From Candidatus Saccharimonadota bacterium (GTDB taxonomy: Bacteria; Patescibacteriota; Saccharimonadia; Saccharimonadales; Saccharimonadaceae): a DNA stretch of 64,000 nt. The DNA lies in assembly GCA_017514045.1 (NCBI GenBank), contig JAFWLS010000013.1, positions 38,377 through 102,376 of the forward strand, read 5' to 3'. Positions 7,405 through 48,607 of this stretch are shown here, in pieces. A model generated the notes under the pieces. That model saw only the letters and a program-made list of their open reading frames with translations. It made no database searches and was not told the origin of the DNA. A program made the translations under genes and the position numbers. How positions within the stretch are numbered: position 1 is the first letter of the stretch; each line of letters begins with the position of its first letter.

Positions 7405-7887
7405 ATGAATCACAAATTCAAAATTGGCGATTCGAAAGTACTAGAGAGTCGTGAGGCCCTTGACGGCACAATGATACGTCGTCGTCGAGTGACTTCTGAT
7501 GGCAAATATCGCTTCACTACTTACGAGCGCATCGAAATGCCAAGCCTTATGGTAAAAAAACGCAGCGGCGAGCGTGAAGCATTTGATCGTGACAAACTCG
7601 TAACTTCAATCCGTCGAAGTGTTGGCAAATTTCTCAACAGCGAGCTTGAAGTAGAAGAAGTAGTAGAGAAAGCTATGGATATTCTCTATGGCTATGGTAC
7701 AGAAATGGTGACCAGCGAACAGATCGGCGAAGCGGTTTTGGAAGTATTATCTGAGATGAACGAAGTCGCATACGTACGTTACTCTTCAGTATTTCGTAAA
7801 TTTAAGACATTGGACGAGTTTGAAGAAATAATTCGAAAACAACGCGAAAAAGCAGCTAGTCGCAAGAAGGGATCTTCATGCGCATAG
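7405..7887 (+). CDS. nrdR: NrdR-type regulator with an ATP-cone but no zinc ribbon cysteines
   Basis: A 160-residue protein whose middle (about 50-140) is the ATP-cone: VKKRSGEREAFDRDKL, then SEQIGEAVLEVL and VAYVRYSSVFRKF, all typical of NrdR, the repressor of ribonucleotide reductase genes that senses ATP/dATP. The N-terminal part keeps VLESREALDG, IRRRR and RFTTYERIE, which frame the family's zinc ribbon, but the two CxxC pairs are gone and no cysteine occurs before the tail. The start is fixed by an AAGGGAAGG site just upstream, so this is not a wrong start. DNA binding may be lost or zinc-independent. No nrd genes are in the window. Confidence 0.85.
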   Translation: MNHKFKIGDSKVLESREALDGTMIRRRRVTSDGKYRFTTYERIEMPSLMVKKRSGEREAFDRDKLVTSIRRSVGKFLNSELEVEEVVEKAMDILYGYGTEMVTSEQIGEAVLEVLSEMNEVAYVRYSSVFRKFKTLDEFEEIIRKQREKAASRKKGSSCA

Positions 7888-8141
7888 TAGCCATCTACAA
7901 GGAATTCTCAGACCACGCTAGAGAAATGGAAGAATGGATAGATCAATTCGAACGCCGCAGCGGTAGAACAATCGAGCGTCTTGATCCGGAAAGCATCGAC
8001 GGCGAATCGTTCTGTGCGCCACGCGACATAGTCCAATATCCTACAATAGCCGTCGCAGGTGATGACGGCAAGACGTACGAAATGTGGTCTGGTTCGCCTC
8101 TTCCGGTTATTGATGAAGTAATGGGCTATATTACTCGCTAA
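7878..8141 (+). CDS. thioredoxin-fold-like small protein without a CxxC motif
   Basis: An 87-residue protein overlapping the end of nrdR by ten bases, so translation is probably coupled. The order beta-strand (RIVAIYKEF), helix (HAREMEEWIDQFER), strand (IERLDP), then QYPTIAV and a closing helix fits a thioredoxin or glutaredoxin fold, with YPT in the place of the cis-proline. The active-site CxxC expected after the first strand is replaced by FSDHA. A single cysteine (SFCAPRD) remains. It may be a non-redox partner or adaptor of NrdR; function is unknown. Confidence 0.6.
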   Translation: MRIVAIYKEFSDHAREMEEWIDQFERRSGRTIERLDPESIDGESFCAPRDIVQYPTIAVAGDDGKTYEMWSGSPLPVIDEVMGYITR

Positions 8142-8157
8142 AACACGATAATTATAG

Positions 8158-8163
8158 TATAAT
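8158..8163 (+). promoter_or_regulatory. leaderless -10 box of ileS
   Basis: TATAAT followed by eight bases and the ileS ATG at 8172. No Shine-Dalgarno site is present and no clear -35 element is seen. Confidence 0.6.
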
Positions 8164-8171
8164 ATATAGAT

Positions 8172-11039
8172 ATGAAGTATACAGCCGGAAAGCGCCGACG
8201 CGCTCTTGAATATGAGAAAGCCATCTCAGAGTGGTGGAAAAAGAATCATATTTTTGAAGAGTCGATTAGCAGTCGCGACACTAAAGACTCTTACGTATTT
8301 TATGATGGACCGCCATTCATTACAGGCATGCCACATCATGGAACATTACTAAGCTCGATTATCAAAGACGCTGTCCCGAGATACTGGACTATGCAAGGTA
8401 AGCGAGTGGAACGCAGATGGGGTTGGGACTGTCATGGGTTGCCGGCCGAAAATTTTGTAGAAAAACAACTAGGTATTACCGATCGCCGCGAGATAGGAAC
8501 CACTATTTCGCTGGAAAACTATATCATAAAAGCTCGCGAATCAATGGTCGCCAACTCAGAAACCTGGCGCGCTACTATCGATCGTATTGGAAGATGGGTG
8601 GATTTTGACAATGCGTACCGCACCATGAATAAAGATTTCATGGAAAGTGTTTGGTGGGCATTTAAAACACTTTACGACAAGGGGTTCATTTATGAGGGCC
8701 GCAAAGTATTAATGTATGACGCTAAATTTGCCACACCTGTCAGCAAAGCAGAAGTGACTATGGACAATGATGCTTATCAAATTGTTACAGACCCATCGGC
8801 CTATGTTAAATTTCGCATTAAGGGCGAGGACCGTTTTCTTATAGCCTGGACCACTACGCCATGGACTCTGCCAGCCAACAAGATGCTAGCTATTTCACCC
8901 AAGCTCAAATATGGCCTTTATCAAGGCCAATACATCATGGCGACAAAACTCGCCGATAAGCTATTCCCAGACGAGAAACCAGCTGAAACTTTCACTGGCA
9001 AGGAGCTCGCAGGGCTTGAATATGAAGATTTGCTTAACAGCTCCAAAACACACTGCGTTTATGAGGCAGATTTTGTTAGCGACGCGGATGGAACTGGTAT
9101 TGTACATATTGCACCAGCCTATGGTGAAGACGATTATAGCTTGTATCTAGCACATGAGAATGAGGCTGAATTCGAAGATGTTCTGGATGAAAATGGATAT
9201 TATCTACCCGAAATAGCTAAGAGACTTCATGAGCTGGGCGTTCGAGACACAGACGAACATGGCATTCAAATCTGGGATGGCAACAAATTTATTGCGAAGG
9301 TTCTCGAAGAAAAAGGGATTATCTACAGAATTGAATATATCAAACACGAATATCCATTCAACCCGCGCAGTAAGTCTCGAATTATTTATCGAGCATTTCC
9401 AAGTTGGTTCTTCGACGTTCAGAATTTAAAGGCCGATCTAATCAAACATAATGAATCAATTAACTGGTTCCCGGAACACTTCAAAGAAGGACGTTTCCGC
9501 AAAAATATTGAAGCTGCTCCAGACTGGAATCTCTCGCGTGATCGTTTCTGGGCCACAGCTATGCCAGTATGGAAGGGTGATAAGGGCACCGTTAAGGTAA
9601 TAGGTAGCTACGCCGAGCTAAAAGATCTGTCAGGTGTCGAGCTCGAAGATTATCACCGTCCTTGGATCGACGCCGTTGAGTTCGATATAGACGGGGAGCA
9701 CTTCAAGAGAGTAGATAAGGTATTGGACTGCTGGTTTGAATCGGGATCGATGCCGTTCGCACAATTGCACTATCCGTTTGAGAATAAAGAAAAGTTTGAA
9801 AAGAACTATCCAGCCGATTTCATCGTTGAATATGTTGGCCAAGTTAGAGCATGGTTTTACTATGTTCACGTCGTTAACACGGCACTCTTTGGCAAAAATG
9901 CTTATAAAAACGTCATTGTCACTGGCACATTAGCTGGTAACGATGGTCGCAAAATGAGCAAATCTTTGGGTAACTTCACGGATCCAAACGAACTAATGGA
10001 CAAATTCTCAGCCGACTCACTTCGTTTCTTGCTACTATCCAGCCCAGTAGCAGCAGGCGAAGACTTTGCGCTGCTCGACAAAGACGTATCAGATGTGGCC
10101 CGCAAACTATCAATGGTTTGGAATGTTTACGACTTTTTCACGACTTATGCGGAAGTAGATGGATTTGATTCAGAGAAGCATTGGGAGCCAAAAGACGCAA
10201 GTATCGAATCGCTAGAAAATCCATTCGATCGTTGGATTATATCTCGCCTGCACGAACTAAAAGCTGAGATAATATCCGGCATGGAGGGTTACAATTTACC
10301 AAAGGCACTGGCGGGAGTATTGCCATTTCTAGATGACCTCTCGAACTGGTTCGTTCGCCGTTCCCGTCGTCGTTTTTGGAAATCCGAAGACGATACTGAT
10401 AAAAATGAAGCATATTGGACGCTCTATACCGTTCTTGTCAAATTCGCTACCATGATGGCGCCGTTTACACCGTTTCTTGCCGAGGAACTATATCAGAATA
10501 TGACTGGTTCTGGAACTTCTGTACATCTCTTAAACTATCCCTCTAATATTACTACGGACCGAACCGCGCTAGATCTTATGCGTCGCACTCGCGAAACCAT
10601 CGCTGAAGGCCTGATGTTACGTATGCAAAAATCTGACACAGAAGACCAAATCAAAATTCGTCAACCGCTGTCTAGCTTTACTTATGCTGGCGATAAACTT
10701 CCAGAGTTCTATGAACAGATTATCAAGGAAGAGCTCAATGTCAAAACAGTAAAGAATGGCAACACGACTACGTTAGACAAGACTCTAACCAAAGAGCTAA
10801 AAGACGAGGGTTTTGTACGAGAATTGATACGCGTAGTGCAATCTGCGCGTAAGAAAGCTGGCCTCCAGGTCGACGATCGCATCAAACTCTCGACTACTCT
10901 TTCAATTCCAAAGCAATTCGAGCAAATTCTCACTGCCGAGACACTAGCTGTTTCGCTTTCTGATGACGAAAACTATAGTTATGACGAAATCGTTGAGGTG
11001 AACGGGAACAAGGGCACAATCAGTCTCGAAAAAGCCTAG
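8172..11039 (+). CDS. ileS: isoleucyl-tRNA synthetase, eukaryote-like (IleRS2-type)
   Basis: A 955-residue class Ia synthetase charging tRNA-Ile. The start YDGPPFITGMPHHGT holds the HIGH-type motif, RRWGWDCHGLPAENFVEK follows, the editing domain has AWTTTPWTLPANK, and GRKMSKSLGN is the KMSKS loop. GWDCHGLPAE joined to an RR-W-type run and the wording of the motifs resemble the eukaryotic and mupirocin-resistant IleRS2 clade more than the common bacterial type. In the HxGH motif the last histidine is replaced by threonine. The gene is leaderless and ends in a strong bidirectional terminator. Confidence 0.93.
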   Translation: MKYTAGKRRRALEYEKAISEWWKKNHIFEESISSRDTKDSYVFYDGPPFITGMPHHGTLLSSIIKDAVPRYWTMQGKRVERRWGWDCHGLPAENFVEKQLGITDRREIGTTISLENYIIKARESMVANSETWRATIDRIGRWVDFDNAYRTMNKDFMESVWWAFKTLYDKGFIYEGRKVLMYDAKFATPVSKAEVTMDNDAYQIVTDPSAYVKFRIKGEDRFLIAWTTTPWTLPANKMLAISPKLKYGLYQGQYIMATKLADKLFPDEKPAETFTGKELAGLEYEDLLNSSKTHCVYEADFVSDADGTGIVHIAPAYGEDDYSLYLAHENEAEFEDVLDENGYYLPEIAKRLHELGVRDTDEHGIQIWDGNKFIAKVLEEKGIIYRIEYIKHEYPFNPRSKSRIIYRAFPSWFFDVQNLKADLIKHNESINWFPEHFKEGRFRKNIEAAPDWNLSRDRFWATAMPVWKGDKGTVKVIGSYAELKDLSGVELEDYHRPWIDAVEFDIDGEHFKRVDKVLDCWFESGSMPFAQLHYPFENKEKFEKNYPADFIVEYVGQVRAWFYYVHVVNTALFGKNAYKNVIVTGTLAGNDGRKMSKSLGNFTDPNELMDKFSADSLRFLLLSSPVAAGEDFALLDKDVSDVARKLSMVWNVYDFFTTYAEVDGFDSEKHWEPKDASIESLENPFDRWIISRLHELKAEIISGMEGYNLPKALAGVLPFLDDLSNWFVRRSRRRFWKSEDDTDKNEAYWTLYTVLVKFATMMAPFTPFLAEELYQNMTGSGTSVHLLNYPSNITTDRTALDLMRRTRETIAEGLMLRMQKSDTEDQIKIRQPLSSFTYAGDKLPEFYEQIIKEELNVKTVKNGNTTTLDKTLTKELKDEGFVRELIRVVQSARKKAGLQVDDRIKLSTTLSIPKQFEQILTAETLAVSLSDDENYSYDEIVEVNGNKGTISLEKA

Positions 11040-11040
11040 T

Positions 11041-11069
11041 AAAATCCCCTCCGCCAGGAGGGGATTTTT
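11041..11069. terminator. bidirectional terminator between ileS and the WG-like protein
   Basis: A perfect 12-base-pair stem (11041-11052 with 11057-11068) around a GCCA loop. T runs exist on both strands, so it can end ileS and the convergent minus-strand gene. Confidence 0.9.
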
Positions 11070-11080
11070 GATTCATGAGT

Positions 11081-12810: not shown

Positions 12811-12824
12811 ATATATAATATATT

Positions 12825-21210: not shown

Positions 21211-24200
21211 ATGGCAACAGTAACTGACTATAACATAGAACAGCCATCCAGAGGCTTTGCCGTCTCGTTATTAGTGATTGTGATATTTGCATTTTCTATC
21301 GTCGCCAATCTGCTCATCGCAAGCAAAACTGCATACGGTGGAGGTGGGGCGAATGCAGGGATTGTAGATATACAACCCGTTAAGCCATGCCCGTCAGGAC
21401 AAAACTGCTCAGGGAGTTCATCCCATGTTGCCCCATACTGGGTGTATTTCAGAATTAAAAACAACAAGAAAACCTCCTTTAATGTTGCCGGAGAAACCGT
21501 ATCTGGTTGCAATGGTGCCGGAGGGTTCTACTTCGAATTTAACGAATCCCTTTCTGGCGCACAATCTAGCGTAATGAATGCGCAAACATCAAGAATGTAC
21601 TACATCGACCATCGAGCCAAAAAGACCGTACCGACCAACAAATACAACGCTAACGATCTAGAACCAATCTACCTCACCTTCCACTCAGACGGCAAAGATT
21701 ATTCAAGCAAAGGAGAAGTCAATATCTGCAGTCTCACTTCGCCAAGGAAAACAATAAATAAATATAACGCCCAAAGCGGGTATAAAATACAGACGCTCAA
21801 TGTCGGAGATTCAAGACTAAAAGATAAGTGTAACTATAATCGAGACTGGGGAACTGGCTTTAAAGATTCGAGTAGAAATGGCGAACAAATCTGCAAAGGT
21901 GGATCACTCTGTATATGGTACAACATAGAAAGCGATATCGTATCCTATATCGTCGACCAATGGAATAATATGATAAAGGATAATGAGAACGCCGGAGACC
22001 TACGCGGTAAAAAAATCTGGGACACGCAGACAAATGGTGACCCAGGAAACGTAGTGAACGTTGTCTGGTTCTGCGGCGGAGTGGGGAGTGGTAACTACAC
22101 CGGCACAACCACAGGAAAAATTGGTGACAAGAGTGCATCCGTAACGACATCTGGCACCAAGAGTTTGTCATACGACGGTACTAAAACCGACGGTAAATAC
22201 ACCATCAACTTTGAACACTTGCTAAAACGCACCGATAACGCCAACAGCTCCATCCCAACCCAAACAGTCAAAATCATCACATCGACAACCAATCTCAGCA
22301 CCAACAAGACAACCACCAAAACCGAAGAGATAAATATAGCATTAGAAAAGAAAGGCACTACTGGTAAAGATTCCGTTACGACGAAGAGGAGCGAGAGCCT
22401 AACGCTTTCGCCTGGGCAAAAGGTTAAGGTTTGTCAGACTATGCAGTACTACAGCTTTGTCGACTATAGCTTTGAGAGCGGAAATTTCCTAACCAACTCC
22501 AGCAATTTAAAGAAAACCACCGTCTGCGTCACCGTCACCCAGCCTATTTATCTTGAACCAGGTTCAGCCTCGTATGTCACTAATAGCGTTAACAATAACA
22601 ACAACTCTCCCGTCACGACAGGCGGTAATAATACCATACAAGGTCTTGCCGGGTCTAAAGGCGGTAATAAAACCTACTCCTATACCTTCACACACAAACT
22701 CAAACTACAAGGAAAAACCGGTTATTCTTACGGCATTCAATACTATATTGTACAAACCAAAGACGGAACAAATGAGACCATTCCAGATAGTGGCACGCAA
22801 TCAAGTCCCAAAACACTTTCGGTAAACAGCGCGGATGGTCATTATGTTCAGGCATTCACGAGCAGAGGCTCATGGGACCCAATTGCTCCGGGCGAACAAA
22901 CCCCCACCATCTGTCAGACTATCTACTTTAAGCCCAAACAGATATCTGCTGGCAGCAGCTATACAATTACAAAAGACACCTGGCAATCATCCACTGTTTG
23001 TACTAATGTCAAACGCAGTGCACCCAAAAAGATTTCTGCTTCAGCCACGTCCGACGTAACGGTCAATGGGGTTAAGAACCCATCTGGTACTCAAATCTCA
23101 GTGGATCCATATAGTATCACATTCGCATTCAAACTAACCACCCCAAACAGTCGTGCGTTAACCACTAATTATTCTATCCAGCGGTTAATTTACAACACTG
23201 GAGGAACAAAGAATTGGAATGATGCAACTACCGTTAAAGGCCCAACCTCTATCTCGGCCCCGGCCAATGTCACGGACTCGTTCAAGAAGGCTACCGAAGA
23301 CGGTCAAGCGCTAACCGTCTGCGAACGTATTGTTCTAGATCCATATCAATACTACATCGAATACAAAGGCGATGGGAAGACGGAAGATGGACTCACGTCG
23401 TTAAGTGGTAGTAAAGCTTTCGCAGAAAGGTGTGTAGACTTAGGGCGTCCACAAAAGCAAAAGTACAATGACGGAGAAGCTATCATCTATTCATCGTCTG
23501 AAGGCAGACTCGACAATAGTGTCTACGACGCTACTCAGGGGGCATATATTCTCAAGAACAATAACACTATCATCTATACCCATAAGCTCTGGCGTAAGGC
23601 AGAAAAACACACCATAAGTGGCAAAAACGCCACCAGTCCAGCAGAAGACGTCAATGTCGAATATCGTCTCGATGATCCAAATGCATCATACAATTCCACC
23701 TCTATCCGCCAAGGAACTGGAACAGCTAATGGCCTACCAAGCATCACAGTACCTACCAACTCAGAATCGCAGAAACGAACAACGACTAGTAATCGGAATT
23801 CCTCACTTCTAAACGCCAACACCGTTATAGACGAAAGCAAATTGTTAGTAGGGCAAAAAAAGACGTTTTGCCAATCCATATTCTTCGTCTCTAAACAGTA
23901 CACGCTAAGAGGCGAATACTATTCGCTTAATGGGCAACTCTGGAGTAACACGATGCTAGGCGTAGAGAGGCCTGTCTCTAAGAACGTTGTCGGCAAATCA
24001 TCACCTGGCTGCGTTAGTGTCATCCGTCCATACAACTTCAAAGTTACGGAAATTTCTGTAAATAGCTCCCCAGAGACCGTAACTGGAGAAGGCGAAGTCG
24101 ACGTCAGTTTTACAATCGACGTTGCTAAGAATGACGGCGCTGGTGACTACAAGATTACCGACATTCCAAACGCCAAGATTCAAGTCATCAAAATTACGTT

Positions 24201-25452
24201 GACTCAGCCACTGAGCCCAGGTGATTCCACCGCCGGCGGAATTGCTACTGATCCATGCCAACACTTCACGAGTCGCCTTGGGGCAAAAGCTAGATGCGAA
24301 TTCGATAGCCCAGCCGACACTAAGACTATTAGTCCGGGTTCACCTAATAGCAGTAGCAGCGTTAGCTATTACAATAGCAACGGATATGCTTCGGTCTACA
24401 CTGCTCACCCTAGTATAAACGAAGTACCTACTACTTATAAGGTGTGCTATGCTATAGCAATCAATCCGGCCAGTAGTGGCAGCAAAGGCTATGGTTTAAG
24501 TGCAGGAGACTTCGATACGGGTAGATGGGTCATCAGTAACGCTGCTTGTATAAACATCGGCAAACGTCCAACCGTACAAGTTTGGGGTGGATCCGTCTTC
24601 TCATCTGGAGGTATCCATACTGCATCATCTCGAGCAAAAGTAAACAACGAATCACAGAATCGCGTCTTTGGTTCATGGGCTGACTACATGATTATCGCAA
24701 ATGGTGCTAATAAGAATATGGCATCTGGAGCTACTCTTATCTCTGGTATGCTTAACGCTACTACTTGTAAATATTCTCCACTCACTATCGCTAATTCCAA
24801 ATGTAATGCGGACACAAAGGAGCTTGGAAGGGCCGCTATTGAATCTGCCCAATCCCTAGAAAGAGGCGTCTACGAGTACTATCTCAAAAACAGTAAAGAC
24901 AAATATCTCGACCTCAAAACGATCGGACTCGAAGGCGGATCGCACATTGTAGACAGAAATACGCTAAACGATGCTTCTGGCACTTATCCAATCCTCATCT
25001 ACAACAATGATGGCGCTCATTCAAACCTCTACATTAAAGAAGATATTAACGTTGGTTTCTCTGGACGTTCTTATAACGACATCAATATACCACAAGTCAT
25101 CATATACTCTCCTGGTAACATCTATATAGCCCCACAAGTGACCCGCATCGATGCTTGGATAATTGCAGGGGGAGAGATCCGAACTTGCGCCGAAGCAAAT
25201 GGTACGGTAATTCGCACCCAACAAGGTCGCGTCGATGAATGCGATAAAAAACTTACTATCACAGGGCCAATCTATGCAAAGAAGATTCTCCTCGATCGTA
25301 TCGCTAACGGTGATGTCAGCAAGAACACCACTGCTGAACCAGCCGAACTTATCGATCTCAACCCGGCCATTTACTTGTTCGGCTATAACGAATCTACCAA
25401 CAATGCGCAGCCTTCTGTAACCTACATGCATAAATTACCGGTAAGATATTAA
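21211..25452 (+). CDS. giant repeat surface protein
   Basis: A 1413-residue protein with an N-terminal membrane or signal segment (FAVSLLVIVIFAFSIVANLLI) ending in IASKTAYGG. The body holds about five divergent repeats of 130-170 residues. Each carries a cysteine in a C-x-x-I/M motif (CQTMQYY, CQTIYFKP, CERIVLDP, CQSIFFVS, CYAIAINP) and a second one 25-50 residues later, fitting one disulfide per repeat. A Thr/Ser/Asn-rich composition is typical of adhesins. The last 250 residues (GGSVFSSGG to the end) look like a beta-helix or polymer-like domain, with IYSPGNIYIAP and AWIIAGGEI. GGAGAGGAGG-type site precedes the start. A role in host-cell contact is inferred. Confidence 0.75.
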   Translation: MATVTDYNIEQPSRGFAVSLLVIVIFAFSIVANLLIASKTAYGGGGANAGIVDIQPVKPCPSGQNCSGSSSHVAPYWVYFRIKNNKKTSFNVAGETVSGCNGAGGFYFEFNESLSGAQSSVMNAQTSRMYYIDHRAKKTVPTNKYNANDLEPIYLTFHSDGKDYSSKGEVNICSLTSPRKTINKYNAQSGYKIQTLNVGDSRLKDKCNYNRDWGTGFKDSSRNGEQICKGGSLCIWYNIESDIVSYIVDQWNNMIKDNENAGDLRGKKIWDTQTNGDPGNVVNVVWFCGGVGSGNYTGTTTGKIGDKSASVTTSGTKSLSYDGTKTDGKYTINFEHLLKRTDNANSSIPTQTVKIITSTTNLSTNKTTTKTEEINIALEKKGTTGKDSVTTKRSESLTLSPGQKVKVCQTMQYYSFVDYSFESGNFLTNSSNLKKTTVCVTVTQPIYLEPGSASYVTNSVNNNNNSPVTTGGNNTIQGLAGSKGGNKTYSYTFTHKLKLQGKTGYSYGIQYYIVQTKDGTNETIPDSGTQSSPKTLSVNSADGHYVQAFTSRGSWDPIAPGEQTPTICQTIYFKPKQISAGSSYTITKDTWQSSTVCTNVKRSAPKKISASATSDVTVNGVKNPSGTQISVDPYSITFAFKLTTPNSRALTTNYSIQRLIYNTGGTKNWNDATTVKGPTSISAPANVTDSFKKATEDGQALTVCERIVLDPYQYYIEYKGDGKTEDGLTSLSGSKAFAERCVDLGRPQKQKYNDGEAIIYSSSEGRLDNSVYDATQGAYILKNNNTIIYTHKLWRKAEKHTISGKNATSPAEDVNVEYRLDDPNASYNSTSIRQGTGTANGLPSITVPTNSESQKRTTTSNRNSSLLNANTVIDESKLLVGQKKTFCQSIFFVSKQYTLRGEYYSLNGQLWSNTMLGVERPVSKNVVGKSSPGCVSVIRPYNFKVTEISVNSSPETVTGEGEVDVSFTIDVAKNDGAGDYKITDIPNAKIQVIKITLTQPLSPGDSTAGGIATDPCQHFTSRLGAKARCEFDSPADTKTISPGSPNSSSSVSYYNSNGYASVYTAHPSINEVPTTYKVCYAIAINPASSGSKGYGLSAGDFDTGRWVISNAACINIGKRPTVQVWGGSVFSSGGIHTASSRAKVNNESQNRVFGSWADYMIIANGANKNMASGATLISGMLNATTCKYSPLTIANSKCNADTKELGRAAIESAQSLERGVYEYYLKNSKDKYLDLKTIGLEGGSHIVDRNTLNDASGTYPILIYNNDGAHSNLYIKEDINVGFSGRSYNDINIPQVIIYSPGNIYIAPQVTRIDAWIIAGGEIRTCAEANGTVIRTQQGRVDECDKKLTITGPIYAKKILLDRIANGDVSKNTTAEPAELIDLNPAIYLFGYNESTNNAQPSVTYMHKLPVRY

Positions 25453-33889: not shown

Positions 33890-34741
33890 GTGAAAATTGG
33901 AATTCTTGGGGCGGGAGCTTACGGATCAGCAATGGCTAGCGTATTGCGCGACAACGGCAATGGCGTCAAACTTTTTGATCCATATCGCTTACCAAATTCC
34001 AGTCTATATGAAACAATCAAGTACGCCCAAGTCATTGTGATTGCCACTCCTGCCGAAGTCATCTCGAGCCTAATTAAACAACTCCCGTCCGAAGCCTTCA
34101 TGAAGCCTGTCGTCATTCTAACTAAAGGCATCATGTCCCTAGAAGCATGGGAAAATTTTCAGTATTTCGAGATAGTATCTGGTCCAGGTTTTGCCGAAGA
34201 TATTCGCCGTCACAGACGTACCAAACTCACCGTTTCGGCTCGCGGGGCTCTTGAAGGAAGCACTCTTTCGGAAGACCTCTTCACGAACAGCTACATCAAA
34301 TTCGACAAGACGAATGACTGCCTAGGTGTCACTCTTCTCTCCGGGCTCAAGAATATTTATGCTATCGAATCAGGCCGTCGCGGTCTAGCATCGCCGTCTG
34401 CCGACTTCAAAGAGTTTGTCGCAGACGTAGCTCGCGAATGCGAAAAGTTCCTACTCTACAATGGTGGTTTCGTTGAAACGGTCCGACTTTCTGCTGGACT
34501 TGGCGATCTAGTCTTAACATGTGGGAGCAACCAGTCTCGCAACTACCAACTCGGCACCCTACTCGGAGGACGCCGCAACGCCATGGAACGCAAACGCTTA
34601 GTAAAAAGATATCTCAGAGATAACACGGTTGAAGGCATATTCTCCACCAAAGAAATCGACAAACTAGGCCTAGCCATCCCCAAAGAATGCGAAATACTAG
34701 TTGATATTACAAAGAGAATTAAGCATGTCATTAAACGCTAA
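33890..34741 (+). CDS. gpsA: NAD(P)-dependent glycerol-3-phosphate dehydrogenase-like protein
   Basis: A 283-residue protein with the GpsA layout: IGILGAGAYGSAMA nucleotide loop, VIVIATPAEVI, SGPGFAEDI where the family has SGPSFA-E, LLSGLKNIYAIESG with the catalytic Lys, and GLGDLVLTCGSNQSRNYQLG. It makes glycerol 3-phosphate for lipids. It is about 50 residues shorter than E. coli GpsA. The frame is open from 33755 but AAAAGGAGAG sets the GTG start at 33890. It overlaps the helicase gene by 17 bases. Confidence 0.88.
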   Translation: MKIGILGAGAYGSAMASVLRDNGNGVKLFDPYRLPNSSLYETIKYAQVIVIATPAEVISSLIKQLPSEAFMKPVVILTKGIMSLEAWENFQYFEIVSGPGFAEDIRRHRRTKLTVSARGALEGSTLSEDLFTNSYIKFDKTNDCLGVTLLSGLKNIYAIESGRRGLASPSADFKEFVADVARECEKFLLYNGGFVETVRLSAGLGDLVLTCGSNQSRNYQLGTLLGGRRNAMERKRLVKRYLRDNTVEGIFSTKEIDKLGLAIPKECEILVDITKRIKHVIKR

Positions 34742-37700
34742 ACAGAAAGAAGCTGTCGAATATATCGAAGGTCCGCTTCTTGTTTTGGCCGGTCCAGGTA
34801 CAGGCAAGACTCATTTGCTTAGCAACAGAGTGGAATATATTCTAAAGACTACCGACACCAATCCAGAAAATATTTTATGCCTTACCTTTACCGAAAGTGG
34901 TGCTGCAAATATGCGCACTCGCCTGCTATCGAGTGTTGGTAAAGCAGCACGCAATCTTGAAATACATACCTATCACGCCTTCGGCACAGATATACTTGCC
35001 AGATATCGAAACTACGCAACAAATTTCAATCGTAGCCTCGACGCCTCCATCGACGAAGTTACACAATTCAAAATTATTCGTGAAATACAAGAAAGCCTTA
35101 ATGCGAACGACGTCTTGCGCAGTGGCATTACCAAAGACATCGTCGATACCATCCAAAGCGCTAAATCAGCTCGCCTCACTGGTAAGGATCTACAGCTCAT
35201 CGCCGAGAAAAATCTAGAGTTTGCCGACCAACTTACCGACGAGATACAAGATATCTTCACCAATCTCGTTCCACGCATGAAATTCTTCGATGCGGTCGAA
35301 AGAGTATATAATCCGCTCTTGTCAGTTCTGGCTAGCCATACTGCCAAACGCAATATCGTAAAGACTATCGAACCTCTTGCGAATGTATTATATCTTGATC
35401 TCAAGAAAACGATTCTCGAAGAATCCGACAAAGAAAAACCCAGTATAGCTCCTCTTACCAAATGGAAAACAGCCAATTTTGAACTAGACGATGACGGCCG
35501 CTATCGCCTCAAGACCTACATTGCAAATCTCAAACTCAAATCTCTTGGCAATATCATGGAGCAATACGACGACAAACTCGCGCGCGAAGGTCTTTACGAC
35601 TTCGCGGACATGATCGAACAGGCTATCGAAGTGCTCAAAAACGACAAAGGTTTCCGTCTAACCTTAAGTGAACGTTTTCAGTATATATTACTAGACGAAT
35701 TCCAGGACACAAATCCATCCCAATTTGAGATCGTAAAGCTTCTCACCGACTACGAACAACCCAACGTCATGGCTGTAGGCGACGACGATCAGGCTATATT
35801 CGAGTTCCAGGGCGCAGAGGCATCAAATCTCCTCACATTCCAACAACACTACGGAGCAAAAGTAATTAACCTCGAAGAAAACTACCGCAGTAATCAGGAA
35901 ATCCTAGATTTGTCGCGTAAAATTGCCGATCAAATCGACGGCAGTTTCGTCAAAAACCCTACTATCGAAAAATCAACTGTTATTTCCAAGAATCTTCACG
36001 CCAACAAAGGTACCGGTGCGACCATCTCTAGACACGAATTCTTGACTAGTGATGGCGAATATGCCTTCGTCGCGTCCGAAATTGAACGACTTATACAGAG
36101 CGGCATACCGCAAAAAGAAATAGCCATCATCACTCCGAAACATAAATACATTGCGCCACTGCTACCTTTTCTCAAGGAATCTGGCAAGATTAATATTGCG
36201 TACGAAAAACGTGACAATCTTTTTGAAGATCCTCGCCTTTCCGAGATTCTCACTTTAGCGAAATTTATCTACGGACTCAGCCAAGGCAAAAATGTTTCCT
36301 CTCAGTTGTTAGAGATTATGAGCTTTGCTTTCTGGGGGATAGATCCATCTGAAGCAATCCGCTGTGTCTGGACCGCTCGGCACGATAAAAAAGCACCCAT
36401 TGACTACCTGGTAAAATCCGACTCCCCGCGGCTTCGCGATATTGGTGAGTTTATGGCTAAATGCGCCATGCTAAGTTTTGATACTCCACTCGAATTAATG
36501 CTAGATTACCTCGTAGGCACAGTCGCCGTAACGCTTCCTAGCGAATTCACCAACAACAAAGACCTGAAAACTGCCATGATTATGAAAAATCCAGAAGGAG
36601 AATTAATTTCAAAAGAAGGCGCATTGAAACGCGAGTTACGTGAATTCCGCAGTCCTTTTATCGAGTATTATGACCACGAACAAGGAGAATACGAAACGTT
36701 CGAGTTGTACGAAAACCTCGCGGTGCTCAGAGAGACTATTCTATCGCATACCCAGACCAAAAATCCGCGTCTAAGAGATCTGATCACGATGCTCGAAGAT
36801 TACGAAGCTGCCGATGCTACACTCACCAATACTTCTCCGTATCGCGACAGCGAAGACGCTATACAGATCGTCACCGCTCACAAGGCCAAAGGTCTGGAAT
36901 ACGAATACGTCTTTATGATTGCTACCGACAACATAAACTGGGGACGCGCCAAAGGCAATAACAACATGCTCGCCCTGCCTAAGAACATGATCCAGATTCG
37001 CCACACAGGTATCACCGACGACGAGCGTTTGCGTTTGCTCTTTGTGGCTATGACCCGCGCTAAAAGTCATCTTATTATGACCAATAGCCTGAAAGATTTC
37101 TCGGGCAAGAGTCCAGCACGTCTTGATTATCTCGAAGAATATATAGAAGATGGCACGGGAGACGTCATTTCGCCATTCATTGGTAAGGTCACTTTACACT
37201 ATGAAGACCTAACAGACCTGCGAAAAACAGTCGATCTCCGCAAAAGCTGGCGCTCCGCCTACACCAAGCTTTCCCCAGAGCTCAGGCCAATTCTCCTCGC
37301 CGAGATGGAAAATTATTTGCTTTCTCCTTCCGACCTCACCTCATTCATTGATATCAGTTATGGCGGACCGATGGAATTCTACAAAAACCGCGTCCTTAGA
37401 GCGCCCAATGAACCTGCTACAGGCAGTATGGTTTTTGGAACATTAATACACCAGGTCTTCGAAAAGGCTACAGTCTCCGCTGCCAATAACGAAGAGTTTA
37501 CGGACGAAGAAGCAATTGCGATGTACCGTAAGGCAGTCGAAGAAGTCGACATGCCTGACGTTGACACCAAATACATGCTCGAGCGTGGTGAAGTAAGCCT
37601 GAAGATTTCTCTAGAAACGTTCAAAAATATTTTGCGAGATCCTCACGCTCGCGCCGAAGTCAATCTTTATAGTGAACACCCAAGTATTGATGGCGTTCCT

Positions 37701-38132
37701 GTAATCGGTATTATCGATCACATGCATATCGACGAGGAAAAGAAAGAAATCGAAGTCTATGATTTTAAGACTGGCAAATACCACAAAGAGCGCTGGGGCT
37801 CTGTCAACACACTTTACAAATACGCACTCCAACTCGGAATGTATAAGCTCATGTTAGAAAATAGCCATACCTATAGTAAATACACCGTTACGCGCGGTCA
37901 TATCCTCTTTGTTACGCCGGACGAAGAAGGCAAAGTATATGACAAAACGCTCGATTTTGAAAAAGATTTGGACGAAGAAGAATTACGCTCCATCATTAAA
38001 GCCGTCTATAAACAGGCCACCACGCTTGCTTTCCTTGATGACGAAGAACTCCGCATAGAGCCCGATAAGAATAACGGGATGAAAGAAATCCGCGATTTTA
38101 TTCAGCTTTTGCTTGATAAAACAAACATTTAA
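34725..38132 (+). CDS. UvrD/AddA-like helicase fused to a RecB-type nuclease
   Basis: A protein of about 1135 residues. Helicase motifs in order: NAKQKEAVEY, GPGTGKTH (Walker A), ILLDEFQDTN, GDDDQAIFEFQGA, LEENYRSN, VTAHKAKGLEYE and LLFVAMTRAKSHL. The C-terminal 250 residues carry a PD-(D/E)xK nuclease: GIIDHMH, EVYDFKTGK and QLGMYKLML. This is the AddA or RecB arrangement, used to process double-strand breaks. No addB or recC partner lies next to it, so it may act alone or with a distant gene. Start at ATG 34725 inside the gpsA end. Confidence 0.9.
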   Translation: MSLNAKQKEAVEYIEGPLLVLAGPGTGKTHLLSNRVEYILKTTDTNPENILCLTFTESGAANMRTRLLSSVGKAARNLEIHTYHAFGTDILARYRNYATNFNRSLDASIDEVTQFKIIREIQESLNANDVLRSGITKDIVDTIQSAKSARLTGKDLQLIAEKNLEFADQLTDEIQDIFTNLVPRMKFFDAVERVYNPLLSVLASHTAKRNIVKTIEPLANVLYLDLKKTILEESDKEKPSIAPLTKWKTANFELDDDGRYRLKTYIANLKLKSLGNIMEQYDDKLAREGLYDFADMIEQAIEVLKNDKGFRLTLSERFQYILLDEFQDTNPSQFEIVKLLTDYEQPNVMAVGDDDQAIFEFQGAEASNLLTFQQHYGAKVINLEENYRSNQEILDLSRKIADQIDGSFVKNPTIEKSTVISKNLHANKGTGATISRHEFLTSDGEYAFVASEIERLIQSGIPQKEIAIITPKHKYIAPLLPFLKESGKINIAYEKRDNLFEDPRLSEILTLAKFIYGLSQGKNVSSQLLEIMSFAFWGIDPSEAIRCVWTARHDKKAPIDYLVKSDSPRLRDIGEFMAKCAMLSFDTPLELMLDYLVGTVAVTLPSEFTNNKDLKTAMIMKNPEGELISKEGALKRELREFRSPFIEYYDHEQGEYETFELYENLAVLRETILSHTQTKNPRLRDLITMLEDYEAADATLTNTSPYRDSEDAIQIVTAHKAKGLEYEYVFMIATDNINWGRAKGNNNMLALPKNMIQIRHTGITDDERLRLLFVAMTRAKSHLIMTNSLKDFSGKSPARLDYLEEYIEDGTGDVISPFIGKVTLHYEDLTDLRKTVDLRKSWRSAYTKLSPELRPILLAEMENYLLSPSDLTSFIDISYGGPMEFYKNRVLRAPNEPATGSMVFGTLIHQVFEKATVSAANNEEFTDEEAIAMYRKAVEEVDMPDVDTKYMLERGEVSLKISLETFKNILRDPHARAEVNLYSEHPSIDGVPVIGIIDHMHIDEEKKEIEVYDFKTGKYHKERWGSVNTLYKYALQLGMYKLMLENSHTYSKYTVTRGHILFVTPDEEGKVYDKTLDFEKDLDEEELRSIIKAVYKQATTLAFLDDEELRIEPDKNNGMKEIRDFIQLLLDKTNI

Positions 38133-43457: not shown

Positions 43458-43469
43458 AAGATCTCTAAA

Positions 43470-43494
43470 ATCCGGCCTCAAAAGCCGGATTTTT
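43470..43494 (+). terminator. terminator before dnaX
   Basis: ATCCGGC (43470-43476), seven-base loop, GCCGGAT (43484-43490), T run. Confidence 0.85.
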
Positions 43495-43498
43495 CGTA

Positions 43499-43504
43499 TA
43501 TAAT
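43499..43504 (+). promoter_or_regulatory. leaderless -10 box of dnaX
   Basis: TATAAT right after the terminator T run, seven bases before ATG 43512. Confidence 0.6.
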
Positions 43505-43511
43505 ATATTAT

Positions 43512-44861
43512 ATGTTAGCCTTATATCGTAAGTATCGCCCTAAAACGCTTTCCGAGGTCGTCGGCCAAGATCAGATAACAAAGCCTCTATCTTCAGCCCT
43601 TAAATCTGGCAAAATTTCACACTCGTATTTATTCACCGGCCCGCGCGGATGCGGCAAAACATCAGTAGCTCGCATTCTCGCACATGAAATCAATGGCTTC
43701 AAATATGAACTTGAAGATAGCTACCTCGACATCATCGAAATAGACGCTGCGTCCAATACCGGCGTAGATAATATCCGCGAATTACGCGAAAAAGCCATTA
43801 TCGCCCCATCCGAAGGCAAATACAAAGTCTACATTATAGACGAAGTCCACATGCTAACCAAATCCGCCTTCAACGCACTGTTAAAGACTCTTGAAGAACC
43901 GCCAACACACGTTGTATTCATTCTCGCAACTACCGATCTAGAAAAGGTCCCTGTTACCATCACCTCCCGTTCACAAGTTTACACTTTCCGTCTCGCATCA
44001 GCCGAAATCATGCTTTCATATCTTGAATCTATCTGCGAAAAAGAGGGAATCAAGATATCTAAAACCGGTCTGAGTTTGATAGTAGAAAAAGGCGGCGGAT
44101 CATTCCGTGACAGCCTCTCGCTTCTTGACCAAATCTCATCCCTCAATTCCGACGATGAAGAAATATCCGAATCAACCGTCGCCGACTGCCTTGGTCTGCC
44201 GATGGACTCTAAAATCAACCAATTATTAAGTTCTTATACCGAAGGTGACGCCGCAAAAATCTCAAAAGAACTTAAAGACCTTCTCTCAGAAGGCTTGAAA
44301 CCTGAAAGTATCGCCTCTTCTTGCCTTACTAGAATTATCACTCAGCCCACCTCGGCTCTCCTTCCGCTCCTAGCAGAGCTACCAAAGGTCGTCGCTCCGT
44401 TTCCTGAAGCTAAATTATTATTAGCATTTTTAGGCAACTCAAGAGCCAATTTCGAAACTAGCAAACATAATAGCGCCATGCAGGACAAAAACAAATCACT
44501 GGATCCAGACCAAAATTTTCAACCACAAAACATAGAAGACAAGAAGCCCGCCAAGTCTGTCATAAAACCAGTAATAAAGGAGCCAAAAGAAAAGAAGCCC
44601 CTTACTCCGGCTCTGTCTCAGTATCTAAAAAAATGCAAGATCATAAACTCAGATGATCAAGTGGACATCTACCCGTCCACCAATACTGCCAAGCGCATTC
44701 TCGAAAAAGAGAACAACGCTGAGCTGCTCATGGGATACTTCTGCAAAAATTATGTAATACACGACATCGACGAGCTAGAAAAGACTCCCGAAATCAAGCA
44801 AATTTCTGATATAATGGGTAATATACAGGAGGTAAACGACAATGGAGGAATCCCGTTCTAG
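43512..44861 (+). CDS. dnaX: DNA polymerase III subunit gamma/tau, zinc module missing
   Basis: A 449-residue clamp-loader ATPase. RKYRPKTLSEVVGQDQI opens it, GPRGCGKTS is Walker A, IIDEVHMLTKSAFNALLKTLEEPP the Walker B and sensor region, and ATTDLEKVPVTITSRS carries the arginine finger SRx. Between Walker A and the IEIDAASN strand, where homologues have a four-cysteine zinc loop, there is only INGFKYELEDSYLD. About 14 residues and all four cysteines are lost. A charged linker and short C-terminal domain follow. It overlaps dnaB by 20 bases. Confidence 0.93.
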   Translation: MLALYRKYRPKTLSEVVGQDQITKPLSSALKSGKISHSYLFTGPRGCGKTSVARILAHEINGFKYELEDSYLDIIEIDAASNTGVDNIRELREKAIIAPSEGKYKVYIIDEVHMLTKSAFNALLKTLEEPPTHVVFILATTDLEKVPVTITSRSQVYTFRLASAEIMLSYLESICEKEGIKISKTGLSLIVEKGGGSFRDSLSLLDQISSLNSDDEEISESTVADCLGLPMDSKINQLLSSYTEGDAAKISKELKDLLSEGLKPESIASSCLTRIITQPTSALLPLLAELPKVVAPFPEAKLLLAFLGNSRANFETSKHNSAMQDKNKSLDPDQNFQPQNIEDKKPAKSVIKPVIKEPKEKKPLTPALSQYLKKCKIINSDDQVDIYPSTNTAKRILEKENNAELLMGYFCKNYVIHDIDELEKTPEIKQISDIMGNIQEVNDNGGIPF

Positions 44862-46206
44862 CAGTGGCCGCGTCCCACCCCAAGATCTAGACGCCGAGAA
44901 ATCACTTCTCGGTGCAATTATGCTATCCGATACCATTTTCCCAGAGATTCTCGAAACAGTTAAATATAAAGATTTCTACGAAGAACGCCACGGCAAAATT
45001 TTCCGTGCCATGACCGCATTATACCAACACCATTCGCCCATTGATCTATTGACCATCACCGCAGAACTACGCAAAAACAAAGAACTTGGGCAAATTGGTG
45101 GCGCTAAGTATCTCACCGAACTAACAAACTATGTCCCTACTGCCAACCATGCTAAAGCATATGCTGATATCGTCGCCTCAACAGCAGTCCGTCGTCGCCT
45201 TATTAATGCGGGTACTGCCATCAGCGAGAGCGGCTACGAAGAGAACAAAGATATCAAAGAAATCCTCGGCAACGCCGAAAAAGAGCTCTTCGCAGTTTCA
45301 AACGAAGTAACCAAAACCGACTACGTTCCACTCGGCAATCTTCTCGTTGACGCTTACGACCGCATGGAAGCGCTTCAAAAGAACAAAGGTGCACTTCGCG
45401 GTCTCAAGACCGGCTTTGCGGACCTAGACAAAATTACCGCCGGCTTTCAAAAGGGTGACCTTATCATCATCGGCGCCCGCCCTGCAATGGGTAAAACCAC
45501 ATTCGCAGAAAACTTGGCATACAATGCCGCTACCATCAATAATCGAGGCGTATTATTCTTTTCTATGGAGATGGCCAGTTCAGAAATTGTCGATCGTATG
45601 ATTTCCGATGTATCCGGTATCGATAACTGGAAGATTCGTACAGGAAATGTCAAAGAAGAAGATTACGGCGCTATCACTGACGCTCTAGAAGAAATGGACT
45701 CCGTCCCACTTTATATCGACGACTCGTCTGTCATGTCTATTCTTGAGCTCCGTAATAAGGCCCGTCGTGCAGTCCATGACCATGATATAGGTATGATCAT
45801 TATCGATTATCTACAGCTAATGAGCGGCTCCGACGTATATCGTAAAACCGGTCAGCGCGTCCAAGAAGTTTCCGAAATTTCTCGCGGCCTCAAGCAAATT
45901 GCGCGTGAGCTCGAAATCCCAGTCGTCGCCCTAGCGCAGCTCTCCCGTAACGTTACTGGGCGCGAAAACCCACGTCCTATCCTATCCGATCTTCGCGAAT
46001 CTGGCTCCATCGAGCAAGACGCCGACCTTGTTATGTTCTTGCACCGCGTCGACTACTATCACGAAAATGAGCCAGATTACGAGAAGACCAATATTACTGA
46101 ACTAATCATTGGCAAACACCGTCACGGTCAAGTTGGTAAGATTGATCTCTACTTCCACCCAGAGCTATTACGCTTTGTGTCGCTTGATAAACAGCATGAT
46201 GAATGA
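44842..46206 (+). CDS. dnaB: replicative DNA helicase
   Basis: A 454-residue DnaB. N-terminal domain with DLDAEKSLLGAIMLSD, linker, then RecA-like ATPase: GARPAMGKTTFA (Walker A), SMEMASSEIVDRM, IIIDYLQLMSG (Walker B) and LRESGSIEQDADLVMFLHR. IIGKHRHG contains the arginine finger region. A GGAGG site lies inside the end of dnaX, so translation of clamp loader and helicase is coupled. No intein is present. Confidence 0.97.
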   Translation: MEESRSSSGRVPPQDLDAEKSLLGAIMLSDTIFPEILETVKYKDFYEERHGKIFRAMTALYQHHSPIDLLTITAELRKNKELGQIGGAKYLTELTNYVPTANHAKAYADIVASTAVRRRLINAGTAISESGYEENKDIKEILGNAEKELFAVSNEVTKTDYVPLGNLLVDAYDRMEALQKNKGALRGLKTGFADLDKITAGFQKGDLIIIGARPAMGKTTFAENLAYNAATINNRGVLFFSMEMASSEIVDRMISDVSGIDNWKIRTGNVKEEDYGAITDALEEMDSVPLYIDDSSVMSILELRNKARRAVHDHDIGMIIIDYLQLMSGSDVYRKTGQRVQEVSEISRGLKQIARELEIPVVALAQLSRNVTGRENPRPILSDLRESGSIEQDADLVMFLHRVDYYHENEPDYEKTNITELIIGKHRHGQVGKIDLYFHPELLRFVSLDKQHDE

Positions 46207-46212
46207 TACAAT
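46184..46212 (+). promoter_or_regulatory. leaderless promoter of the polytopic membrane protein
   Basis: TTGATA (46184-46189), 17-base spacer, TGA-TACAAT (46207-46212), eight bases to ATG 46221. It lies inside the dnaB end. Confidence 0.7.
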
Positions 46213-46220
46213 AAAGCATA

Positions 46221-47690
46221 ATGAGTAAACTCGTTATCTCGAAACTTTTGCTTTATCGTTACCGCTTTTTTATAGGTTACATCATCCTCAGTCTGGCGTT
46301 TATCGCTCTTGTTTTCTGCTTACCACTTATTAGCCCTAGTGGTCTTTCCGATTTCGAGCGCCAATCAGCTGTTTCAAGTTACAATTTGCACTTATCTTCT
46401 ATTACTTCAGGTGATTTAATTGATCTACCGTATCATATATTGCAAAAACTAAGCATCCTAGTCTTTGGGCTTACGCCATATTCAATAAAACTTCCGTCTA
46501 TCATCATCGGTCTGGCTCTGGGACTTCTCCTCATTCTTCTACTTAATCGCTGGTTCAAGAGCAACGTTGCGCTTCTGGCATCCATACTTACTGTTCTATC
46601 GACGCCGTTCCTTTATCTAACAGGCTCGGGCACACCGCTAATCATGCTTGTCTTTTGGCCCACTCTCCTTCTATGGCTTGGCTCTAAGATTCAAGGTGAA
46701 AAATCGCCCAAACCACTCTGGTGTTTCGCCTTTGCCTTAGCGCTATTACTAGCCATATATACGCCGCATCTTATTTATCTTGTTCTCTTCATCGTTATAT
46801 TCGCCATCTGGAACCCACATCTACGCTTCACGATTAAAACACTGCCTAAGTTCCCCTTACTCTGCATGGGCGTCATTGTCTTAGCCGGTCTTGCTGTTTG
46901 GGTTACCAATATTCTTTCCTCGTCCACGGTTGCTCTTACGCTCTTCTTCGGCGAAAACTTCTCATTCTCTCATTTCTTCAACAACATCAAGACCGGCTTC
47001 GCACCATTCTTCTCTTGGGGACAACCCCTCGAAGGAGTCTATCTCTCGCCCCTCATTGGTCTTGCTTCGTTCGCCCTAGCTATCACGGGCCTATTTAGCA
47101 CACGTCAAGGTTTTTTTGCCAGTCGTAATGCGATCGCGAGCTGTTTCATCGTCTTTGCAGTTGTTCTCGCTGGCCTCACCCCGGATTCTTCGCTCTTAAT
47201 TGTGCTACCATTCTCAATTCTTACAGCACATGGCTTACGCTATATACTAGAAAAATGGTATGGTCTTTTTCCGGCCAATCCATATGCACGGGTCTTTGCC
47301 ATTTTCCCGTTATCGATTCTCCTTGCTCTCATGATCGTCCCCAGTCTCAACCACTATGTCTACGGTTACAAATACACACCAGCTGTCGCCAATCAATTCA
47401 GTTCCGATCTCACGCTTATTTCAGACAAACTTGAGCCAGATACAATACTCCTCGTCCCAGAGGATAGTTTAGATTATGCTTTCTATAGCGTCTACGAAGA
47501 CAGACACCACGCAATCAAACTATATGGCTCACCAGAACAAATTACCAACATCACTCCTGGCAACGTAATTGCAACTCTCGGCAAAAACGACACTTTTGCA
47601 ATTCCAGGCGGATATACGCTCCAGCGTATTATCACCTCCCCAAATTCTGATAATTCTGATAGAATATACATATATAGCGTAAATAATTAA
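46221..47690 (+). CDS. polytopic membrane protein, possibly GT-C/PMT-like
   Basis: A 489-residue protein with about ten membrane helices and a soluble C-terminal part of about 100 residues. The layout (a first helix, a loop with DLPYHILQKLSILVFGL and SIKLPSIIIGLALGLLLILLLNRWF, then many helices) is like lipid-linked sugar transferases of the GT-C fold. The usual Asp-Glu or Asp-Asp of the first outer loop is not evident (LSDFERQ is the only acidic spot). It may be a glycosyltransferase or a family relative without activity. Neighbours give no clue. Confidence 0.55.
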   Translation: MSKLVISKLLLYRYRFFIGYIILSLAFIALVFCLPLISPSGLSDFERQSAVSSYNLHLSSITSGDLIDLPYHILQKLSILVFGLTPYSIKLPSIIIGLALGLLLILLLNRWFKSNVALLASILTVLSTPFLYLTGSGTPLIMLVFWPTLLLWLGSKIQGEKSPKPLWCFAFALALLLAIYTPHLIYLVLFIVIFAIWNPHLRFTIKTLPKFPLLCMGVIVLAGLAVWVTNILSSSTVALTLFFGENFSFSHFFNNIKTGFAPFFSWGQPLEGVYLSPLIGLASFALAITGLFSTRQGFFASRNAIASCFIVFAVVLAGLTPDSSLLIVLPFSILTAHGLRYILEKWYGLFPANPYARVFAIFPLSILLALMIVPSLNHYVYGYKYTPAVANQFSSDLTLISDKLEPDTILLVPEDSLDYAFYSVYEDRHHAIKLYGSPEQITNITPGNVIATLGKNDTFAIPGGYTLQRIITSPNSDNSDRIYIYSVNN

Positions 47691-47705
47691 TTAGGAGTTG
47701 TTATT

Positions 47706-48002
47706 ATGGGCCAAACTATGGACCAAATGAAGATGCTCAATCAATTGCGCAAAGCACAGAAAGAGCTCAAAAATGAAATTGTCGAAGTAGAAGCTGGTGA
47801 CGGCGCTGTTGTCGTCCAGATTAACGGCGAACTCAAAATCAAGAAAATCACCATCGACCCAGAGCGTGTTGATCTAGATGATATCCATGAACTTGAACGA
47901 TGGCTAGAAAACTGCCTTCGCGACGGCTATGCCAAAGCCCAAGAAATCGCCTCCGATAAAATGAAGCCCCTCATGGGCAAATTGGGCGACCTCGGACTAT
48001 AA
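47706..48002 (+). CDS. YbaB/EbfC nucleoid-associated protein
   Basis: A 98-residue protein. The helical start (MKMLNQLRKAQKELKNEI), the beta part VVVQINGELKIKKITIDPE and the final helix fit YbaB/EbfC dimers that bind DNA. TTAGGAG precedes it. It sits directly before recR (TAATG overlap), the order seen in most bacteria, where the two are linked to DNA repair. Confidence 0.93.
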   Translation: MGQTMDQMKMLNQLRKAQKELKNEIVEVEAGDGAVVVQINGELKIKKITIDPERVDLDDIHELERWLENCLRDGYAKAQEIASDKMKPLMGKLGDLGL

Positions 48003-48607
48003 TGCTTCCCGACGCTCTCACAAGAGTTATTGAGGCACTAGGCCACTTGCCCGGCGTAGGACCACGCACCGCAGAGCGTTACGCATACTTTTTGTTTCGT
48101 TCCAATTCCCGTATATCCGAAGCAATCGCCGACTCTTTGAGCACGCTTCATTCAGGCGTAAAATCCTGTCCTAAGACCTTCGCTCTCATCGATAGCACCG
48201 AGTCAGTTTCTAACCTCTACGCCGACCCAGAGCGCGACAAATCGATCGTCCTCGTCGTCGAAGAGCCGCTTGATATATATTCGGTTGAAGCTACCAGACA
48301 ATACAAGGGGACATATCATGTTCTAGGTGGAGCTATTTCGCCAATTGACGGTATCACGCCCGACCAGCTCCACATCAAAGAGCTTATCGACCGCATCCCA
48401 GAAGACAAAGTTGCAGAAGTCATCATTGCGACTAACCCTTCGGTCGAAGGCGAATCTACCGCACTACTTCTACAAAAGCTTCTTATCGAAAAATATCCTG
48501 ATCTCAAAATCACACGCCTTGCTCGCGGCCTGCCTCTTGGCGTCGACTTATCATACGCCGATCAAACCACGCTCTCTGCAGCTCTCCAGAACCGCACTAA
48601 ATTATGA
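48002..48607 (+). CDS. recR: recombination protein RecR, zinc finger degraded
   Basis: A 201-residue RecR. LPGVGPRTAERYAYFL is the helix-hairpin-helix, VVEEPLDIYSVEATRQYKGTYHVLGG starts the Toprim domain, and ATNPSVEGESTALLL and LPLGVDLSYADQTTL follow. Between them, where homologues have a four-cysteine zinc finger, the segment reads SCPKTFALIDSTESVSNL, with only the first cysteine kept. RecR works with RecO and RecF in gap repair; zinc usually holds the oligomer together. It overlaps alkD by four bases. Confidence 0.93.
   Translation: MLPDALTRVIEALGHLPGVGPRTAERYAYFLFRSNSRISEAIADSLSTLHSGVKSCPKTFALIDSTESVSNLYADPERDKSIVLVVEEPLDIYSVEATRQYKGTYHVLGGAISPIDGITPDQLHIKELIDRIPEDKVAEVIIATNPSVEGESTALLLQKLLIEKYPDLKITRLARGLPLGVDLSYADQTTLSAALQNRTKL

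Follow-up and report, generated by a model that had tools for sequence, protein, structure and literature searches.

Stepwise loss of four-cysteine zinc modules from core proteins of Saccharibacteria, including a probable zinc-free NrdR repressor

Three proteins that normally hold a four-cysteine (Cys4) zinc module, the ribonucleotide reductase (RNR) regulator NrdR, the clamp-loader protein DnaX and RecR, are encoded without it in one stretch of DNA from a Candidatus Saccharimonadota bacterium (GenBank assembly GCA_017514045.1, contig JAFWLS010000013.1, positions 38,377 to 102,376 of the forward strand). This raises the question of what has replaced the modules, at which depth of the tree they were lost, and whether a NrdR without zinc can still act on its target genes. 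The stretch of 64,000 nucleotides is referred to here as the window, and the genome that carries it, G000, measures 845 kb with a completeness of 98.57 percent; other genomes are labelled by family and genus codes only, with G152 and G093 serving as outgroups. The answer that we consider probable, judging from sequence comparisons and predicted structures, is that the lineage lost Cys4 modules from core proteins at different depths, that the cysteine-free replacements likely fold without metal, and that the zinc-free NrdR likely still represses the RNR genes.

The nrdR gene (7405..7887, + strand, 160 residues), assigned on its Pfam domain matches, encodes a cysteine-free DNA-binding ribbon and an ATP-cone. 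Both domains pass their Pfam thresholds, the ATP-cone with 54.7 bits and Zn_ribbon_NrdR with 40.7 bits against a cut-off of 27.2, in a match that begins at profile position 10. Alignment to solved NrdRs, a residue map and the strands of an AlphaFold2 model delimit the ribbon to residues 1–45 (7405..7539, +). The preliminary description of this DNA had stated that none of the four zinc cysteines is kept, and this is borne out, with the E. coli ligands C3, C6, C31 and C34 corresponding to N2, F5, T30 and G33 (0/4), where N2 and F5 precede the HMMER alignment and were positioned by a constant offset and by pairwise alignment. A sequencing error is discounted, as the four ligand cysteines are missing from all 120 of the best 120 NrdR homologues (two have one cysteine elsewhere in the ribbon) and the Cys4 module from all 120 of the best 120 RecR homologues, both lists being made up of close relatives, with near-copies of the window proteins among them.

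In the accessible text of two reports on solved NrdR complexes (PMC9110341, PMC12176259), Zn-ribbon pairs are described as joining via the third strand, with arginines, including those of the RRRR motif, holding the DNA backbone, D15 and R17 contacting exposed bases at conserved G–C pairs, and the boxes lying about three turns apart. The DNA-contact residues D15, R17, R26, R28 and R37 align with E14, R16, R25, R27 and R36 of the window protein, four of them being identical and Asp15 being replaced by Glu, which is also present in Cys4 relatives of the same family; the dimer residues R26, R28 and E41 are kept. Across 42 aligned close relatives G33, R16, R25–28, R36 and E41 are found in 42/42 and D32 at a level of at least 90%, and the ribbon contains no conserved cysteine or histidine. 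The model has strands at residues 10–17, 23–30 and 36–42, so that the three-stranded fold of the ribbon is predicted to persist, and residues 29–34 (VTSDGK; 7489..7506, +) form a predicted Asp-Gly turn at the site of the second C-x2-C knuckle. Foldseek comparison with solved NrdRs gives modest TM-scores of 0.52–0.61 by query length, for which flexing of the domains is the likely reason. Compared with NrdR of E. coli and Streptomyces coelicolor, the window protein shares the ATP-cone, the RRRR motif, the residues for DNA contact and dimer formation, and tandem 16-bp boxes about 31–33 bp apart upstream of RNR genes, whereas it differs in having no zinc ligand, an Asp-Gly stretch for the second knuckle and Glu for Asp15.

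The target sites were searched with a 16-letter consensus that we take to represent the NrdR box. Outside the window, on contig C6 of the same genome, two boxes (22536–22551 and 22568–22583), 32 bp apart, precede an anaerobic-type RNR gene, and two matches occurred in none of 200 shuffles. The promoter test covered the 17 of 54 searched genomes that have a match to this kind of RNR; a box pair 30–34 bp apart lies upstream of the RNR gene in 13 of the 14 genomes with a Cys-less canonical NrdR and in all three with a Cys4 NrdR, and all 19 dnaX upstream regions used as a control fall outside the score range of the RNR box pairs. Because NrdR keeps nearly all of its DNA-contact residues together with paired target sites, it is likely a zinc-free repressor. 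Mechanistically, the Asp-Gly turn would replace the second zinc knuckle while the three strands remain, and the zinc-free dimer would meet an unchanged operator with its RRRR motif and E14/R16 pair. A scan of the window, nrdR included, found no NrdR box within three mismatches, and self-control of NrdR is consequently not seen. As a separate observation, the class III RNR of this genome (L239:4663-7035, contig C6) carries a C-terminal zinc site, DPVCGF...CPSCG, in which the first of what we assume to be the four usual cysteines is apparently Asp.

Relatives with intact NrdR modules do exist, and they date the loss and do not overturn the trait. Among 145 genomes of the phylum, 95 match the ribbon model, and the match begins after the first knuckle in four, all from the window's own family; in the ribbons of loci L004–L033, both C-x2-C pairs are present in 29 of 29 read by script. 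Within the family the cysteines are absent from all 29 NrdRs read, in 24 genera, and are kept in nine genomes of eight other genera; the former 29 constitute a check and not a rate, because their genomes were preselected on weak, Cys-less-looking profile matches. When the NrdR alignment was used for a pattern scan of named genomes, 583 relatives were recovered, and the best 80 of these comprise 59 with a cysteine-free ribbon and 21 with four or five cysteines there; by their titles, 57 of the 59 genomes are Saccharibacteria, Saccharimonadia, Patescibacteria or simply “bacterium”, and two are Nomurabacteria. In a tree of DnaX, DnaB and RecR (zinc columns removed, quick search, midpoint root), the 22 genomes scored Cys-less for NrdR form one clade with a Shimodaira–Hasegawa-like approximate likelihood-ratio test (SH-aLRT) value of 99. 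One of them, G211, was scored without its NrdR being read, and the read states alone (21 Cys-less, 13 Cys4) still need a single change. The NrdR zinc site was thus lost once, within one family, later than the losses in RecR and L36.

RecR is encoded by recR (48002..48607, +, 201 residues), which passes TIGR00615 with 206.3 bits (cut-off 162.55) and matches the HhH, Toprim and C-terminal domains in Pfam, with no match to RecR_ZnF. One of its four zinc cysteines remains, as the preliminary description had it: C56 is kept and the other three are T, S and Y. They lie in a conserved replacement of the zinc finger, residues 56–78 (CPKTFALID...SNLYADPER; 48167..48235, +), in which C56, P57, T59, F60–D64, S70 and Y73 are present in 40 of 40 close relatives. 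Across the 244 genomes of the class, RecR itself being detected in 236, the zinc-finger model PF02132 matches none of 216 in the window's order and 21 of 28 outside it; read as sequence, Cys4 is present in 23 of 23 RecRs outside the order (two of which the model missed) and absent from 41 of 41 inside, where the looser motif C-x2-[TS]-[FY]-A-[LF] occurs in all 41. The RecR zinc finger was therefore lost at the base of this order. In the predicted structure, residues 56–78 have values of the predicted local distance difference test (pLDDT) of 78–91 by ten-residue block, and the segment is predicted to fold as a small hairpin next to the Toprim domain. Compared with Cys4 RecRs (3vdp, 1vdd, 8k3f), the HhH, Toprim and C-terminal domains and the overall predicted fold are the same, and the difference consists of three of the four cysteines being replaced inside a conserved C-x2-T-F-A-L...S-x-L-Y. 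A review describes the RecR finger, in the part of its text accessible to us, as structural (PMC12192639), which makes its replacement plausible. A DNA alkylation repair gene (PF08713; 48604–49293) shares a few bases with the end of recR.

The third protein, DnaX (dnaX, 43512..44861, +, 449 residues), passes the clamp-loader gamma/tau model TIGR02397 with 346.4 bits (cut-off 250). Aligned to E. coli gamma/tau, it shares the AAA+ clamp-loader ATPase and the N-terminal family model and differs in lacking the Cys4 loop; the deletion noted earlier is accurate, a shorter cysteine-free stretch, residues 61–71 (NGFKYELEDSY; 43692..43724, +), standing at the site of the E. coli zinc module. Here the loop has simply been dropped. 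It is present in none of the 41 genomes read from the order and, elsewhere in the class, present in eight of 17 and absent from nine, so that its absence spans the order and reaches some sister families.

A first alternative is decay of the modules of NrdR and RecR, their zinc sites having eroded under relaxed selection with function lost or going. The small genome (845 kb) and the location of the changes at the zinc ligands would be in line with such erosion, whereas the replacement segments are nearly invariant in close relatives at the positions given above (42/42 for NrdR, 40/40 for RecR), the looser RecR motif persists across the order in 41 of 41 genomes, and the NrdR operators are kept. 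We thus regard decay as very unlikely; a relaxed structural need, offered in the preliminary description as one possible cause, does too little to explain NrdR, given the strong conservation of the zinc-free ribbon itself.

It has to be noted that several points weigh against a functional, metal-free NrdR and RecR. NrdR scores 114.5 bits against the NCBIfam equivalog model TIGR00244, about 10 bits short of its cut-off of 124.65. G306, the one exception among the 14 Cys-less genomes, has no box pair (p = 0.67), although there the RNR query matched the ATP-cone only, and another protein could occupy the boxes; a divergent, cysteine-bearing NrdR-like second gene is indeed present in some of these 14 genomes (G181, G306). 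The AlphaFold models of NrdR and RecR were built metal-free on close-relative alignments, and the mean pLDDT for RecR is only 72. Added zinc enhances DNA binding by E. coli NrdR (PMC4898720, accessible portion), work in Streptomyces cited in the same portion holds the zinc region to be crucial, and C. jejuni RecR is reported in the available part of PMC10454854 to melt at 65.5 °C but, with EDTA (ethylenediaminetetraacetic acid), at 58.4 °C, a drop of about 7 degrees. As zinc aids the one protein and stabilises the other, the replacements would have to compensate for it; each may have made zinc dispensable in its protein, with selection then keeping the new segment. Many genomes of the class carry the divergent NrdR-like protein, which has a WRRR motif, intact cysteines and an altered ATP-cone (loci L036, L039, L041, L043, L045, L046 and L049, with a similar one at L176).

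The losses reach beyond these three proteins. For L36, 30 genomes were searched, 29 matched and 26 were read: all three cysteines are gone in 22 of 22 from the order, the fourth ligand, a histidine, being lost in the window's family and kept in other families, and all ligands are kept in four of four outside it, so that the L36 cysteines were lost at the base of the order. The Cys-rich domain of DnaJ lies above cut-off in 23 of 30 genomes and is absent from G000, two congeners, G194, G256, G145 and G169; the DnaJ-like protein of G000 lacks the Cys-rich part. A broader survey took about half of G152 and about half of G093 and compared their paired-cysteine modules with orthologues, the protein names, other than those of the window's three and of L36 (found by family search), being presumed from recognition of the sequences. 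Rows removed or moved were a divergent NrdR paralogue matching NrdR, a MetRS matching LeuRS, an antisense-looking frame (two rows), a ThrRS with a site of a different kind (three of four kept), and a 318-residue protein matching DnaX, which we take to be delta-prime. The NrdR and LeuRS modules of G000 lay beyond the local alignments and were taken from direct reading of the sequence.

From G152 to G000, two of 12 modules are kept (RadA, UvrA), and those lost are in RecR, DnaX, S14, L36, L28, DnaJ, PheS, PilB, NrdR and one LeuRS module, the PheS and PilB sites being putative; the other LeuRS module retains three of four positions. From G093, the sites in GlyRS, MetRS, UvrA and RadA are kept and those in RecR, DnaJ, L36 and S14 are lost. 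Nine G152 modules are readable in all three genomes (LeuRS, RadA, RecR, UvrA, DnaX, S14, L36, NrdR, DnaJ), and with G152 as the reference G093 keeps eight and G000 two, a contrast (Fisher p = 0.015) that is indicative only, because the modules are not independent and the set was listed after the data had been seen. GlyRS is outside this set because its site, kept in G000 and G093, is lost in the reference; with it added, the figures become 3/10 and 9/10. TopA, S14 and SecA of G000 have one, zero and two cysteines.

The preliminary description had further seen a selective loss, citing thymidine kinase, Tgt and CysS as keeping their zinc cysteines. Thymidine kinase does keep all four (C145/C147/C184/C187) and Tgt has C307/C309/C312 and, downstream, a histidine, while for CysS the two ligand positions read, C27 and C220, are present. 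Selectivity is real, since the RadA, UvrA, MetRS and GlyRS sites are also kept, but it is not specific to DNA metabolism, which the ortholog survey rules out, S14, L28, L36 and DnaJ being affected. The suggestion of a lineage trait holds, whereas a single event for NrdR, RecR and DnaX is ruled out by their different positions on it: RecR and L36 at the order, NrdR inside the family, DnaJ in some genera, and DnaX also in sister families. Both analyses that had been proposed were made, the tree placing the NrdR loss and the models predicting the NrdR strands and the RecR hairpin. Among other genes of the window, QueH and Tgt are adjacent with a slight overlap (53063–54776); an Ile/Leu/Met/Val-class tRNA synthetase (8172–11039) with a DUF5915 C-terminal match has only three cysteines in 955 residues, a UvrD-like helicase fused to a PDDEXK nuclease (34701–38132) has three in about 1140, and a 1413-residue protein (21211–25452), with no Pfam match at E 0.01, has 24 inside a cysteine-poor stretch.

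Alternatively, residues other than cysteine could still hold zinc, or a different metal, in the modules. The single conserved cysteine of RecR and the aspartates at some former ligand positions of S14 and L36 would fit this, whereas the NrdR ribbon has neither cysteine nor histidine conserved and the DnaX loop is gone, which leaves it highly improbable. Acquisition of zinc-free versions by horizontal transfer, like that of ribosomal C-minus genes, has also to be weighed against change in place. The S14 of G000 has 89 residues, against a 65-residue frame in G152, as if it were a different form, and transfer of a C-minus gene is reported for S4 in the portion of the literature available. Against this, dnaX and recR occur together in at least 17 of 20 regions of 6–8 kb retrieved to look for this, the NrdR loss coincides with one clade of an independent tree, and the zinc-free NrdRs share ESR...RRRR...FTTYERIE with Cys4 neighbours in the family; we hold such transfer to be very improbable.

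As to the cause, the preliminary description had named zinc economy as one possibility. On this account, which is compatible with our preferred one of stepwise loss and metal-free replacement, a shortage of zinc in host-dependent life would have selected zinc-free versions of many proteins. The extension of the losses to ribosomal proteins speaks for it, and zinc and zinc-free forms of ribosomal proteins are discussed together with zinc economy in the accessible part of PMC3087516. The only test run gives it no support: of 30 genomes, 28 have no ZnuA, irrespective of the state of their modules (other zinc transporters and Zur were not searched), and G194, one of the two ZnuA-bearing genomes, has a zinc-free NrdR. 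Several zinc sites are moreover kept (RadA, UvrA, MetRS, GlyRS, thymidine kinase, Tgt), and zinc economy appears rather unlikely, if still a candidate. As in the C-plus/C-minus ribosomal forms, the zinc site is lost and the protein retained (L36, S14 and L28 here), whereas G000 differs in having a single NrdR and a single L36, both zinc-free, instead of a two-form switch: searches of this genome gave one match each, with no zinc-binding second copy, and none to the divergent WRRR paralogue. The loss extends here to a DNA-binding repressor, RecR and DnaX.

Literature searches, from which subscription journals were mostly outside coverage, found no earlier report on NrdR and zinc in Saccharibacteria and only unrelated work on loss of zinc binding in Patescibacteria; for Saccharibacteria, zinc fingers and RecR, all of the matches listed were unrelated. 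The trait is broader and more stepwise than first proposed, and the zinc-free NrdR with unchanged operators is its most informative member. A wider proposal, to which we give a little less than an even chance, is that structural zinc is being stripped stepwise from the core proteome of Saccharibacteria, with knuckles turning recurrently into metal-free Asp-containing turns (NrdR, L36, S14, LeuRS), which would yield a natural zinc-free Zn-ribbon transcription factor on an unchanged NrdR operator. If zinc-free NrdRs that share operators and contact residues with the zinc-binding forms work as repressors, the role of the ion would be confined to shaping the fold, and within one family NrdR proteins from before and after the loss can be compared; the graded depths of loss within one class allow the order in which, and the reason why, a reduced lineage surrenders its structural zinc to be asked.

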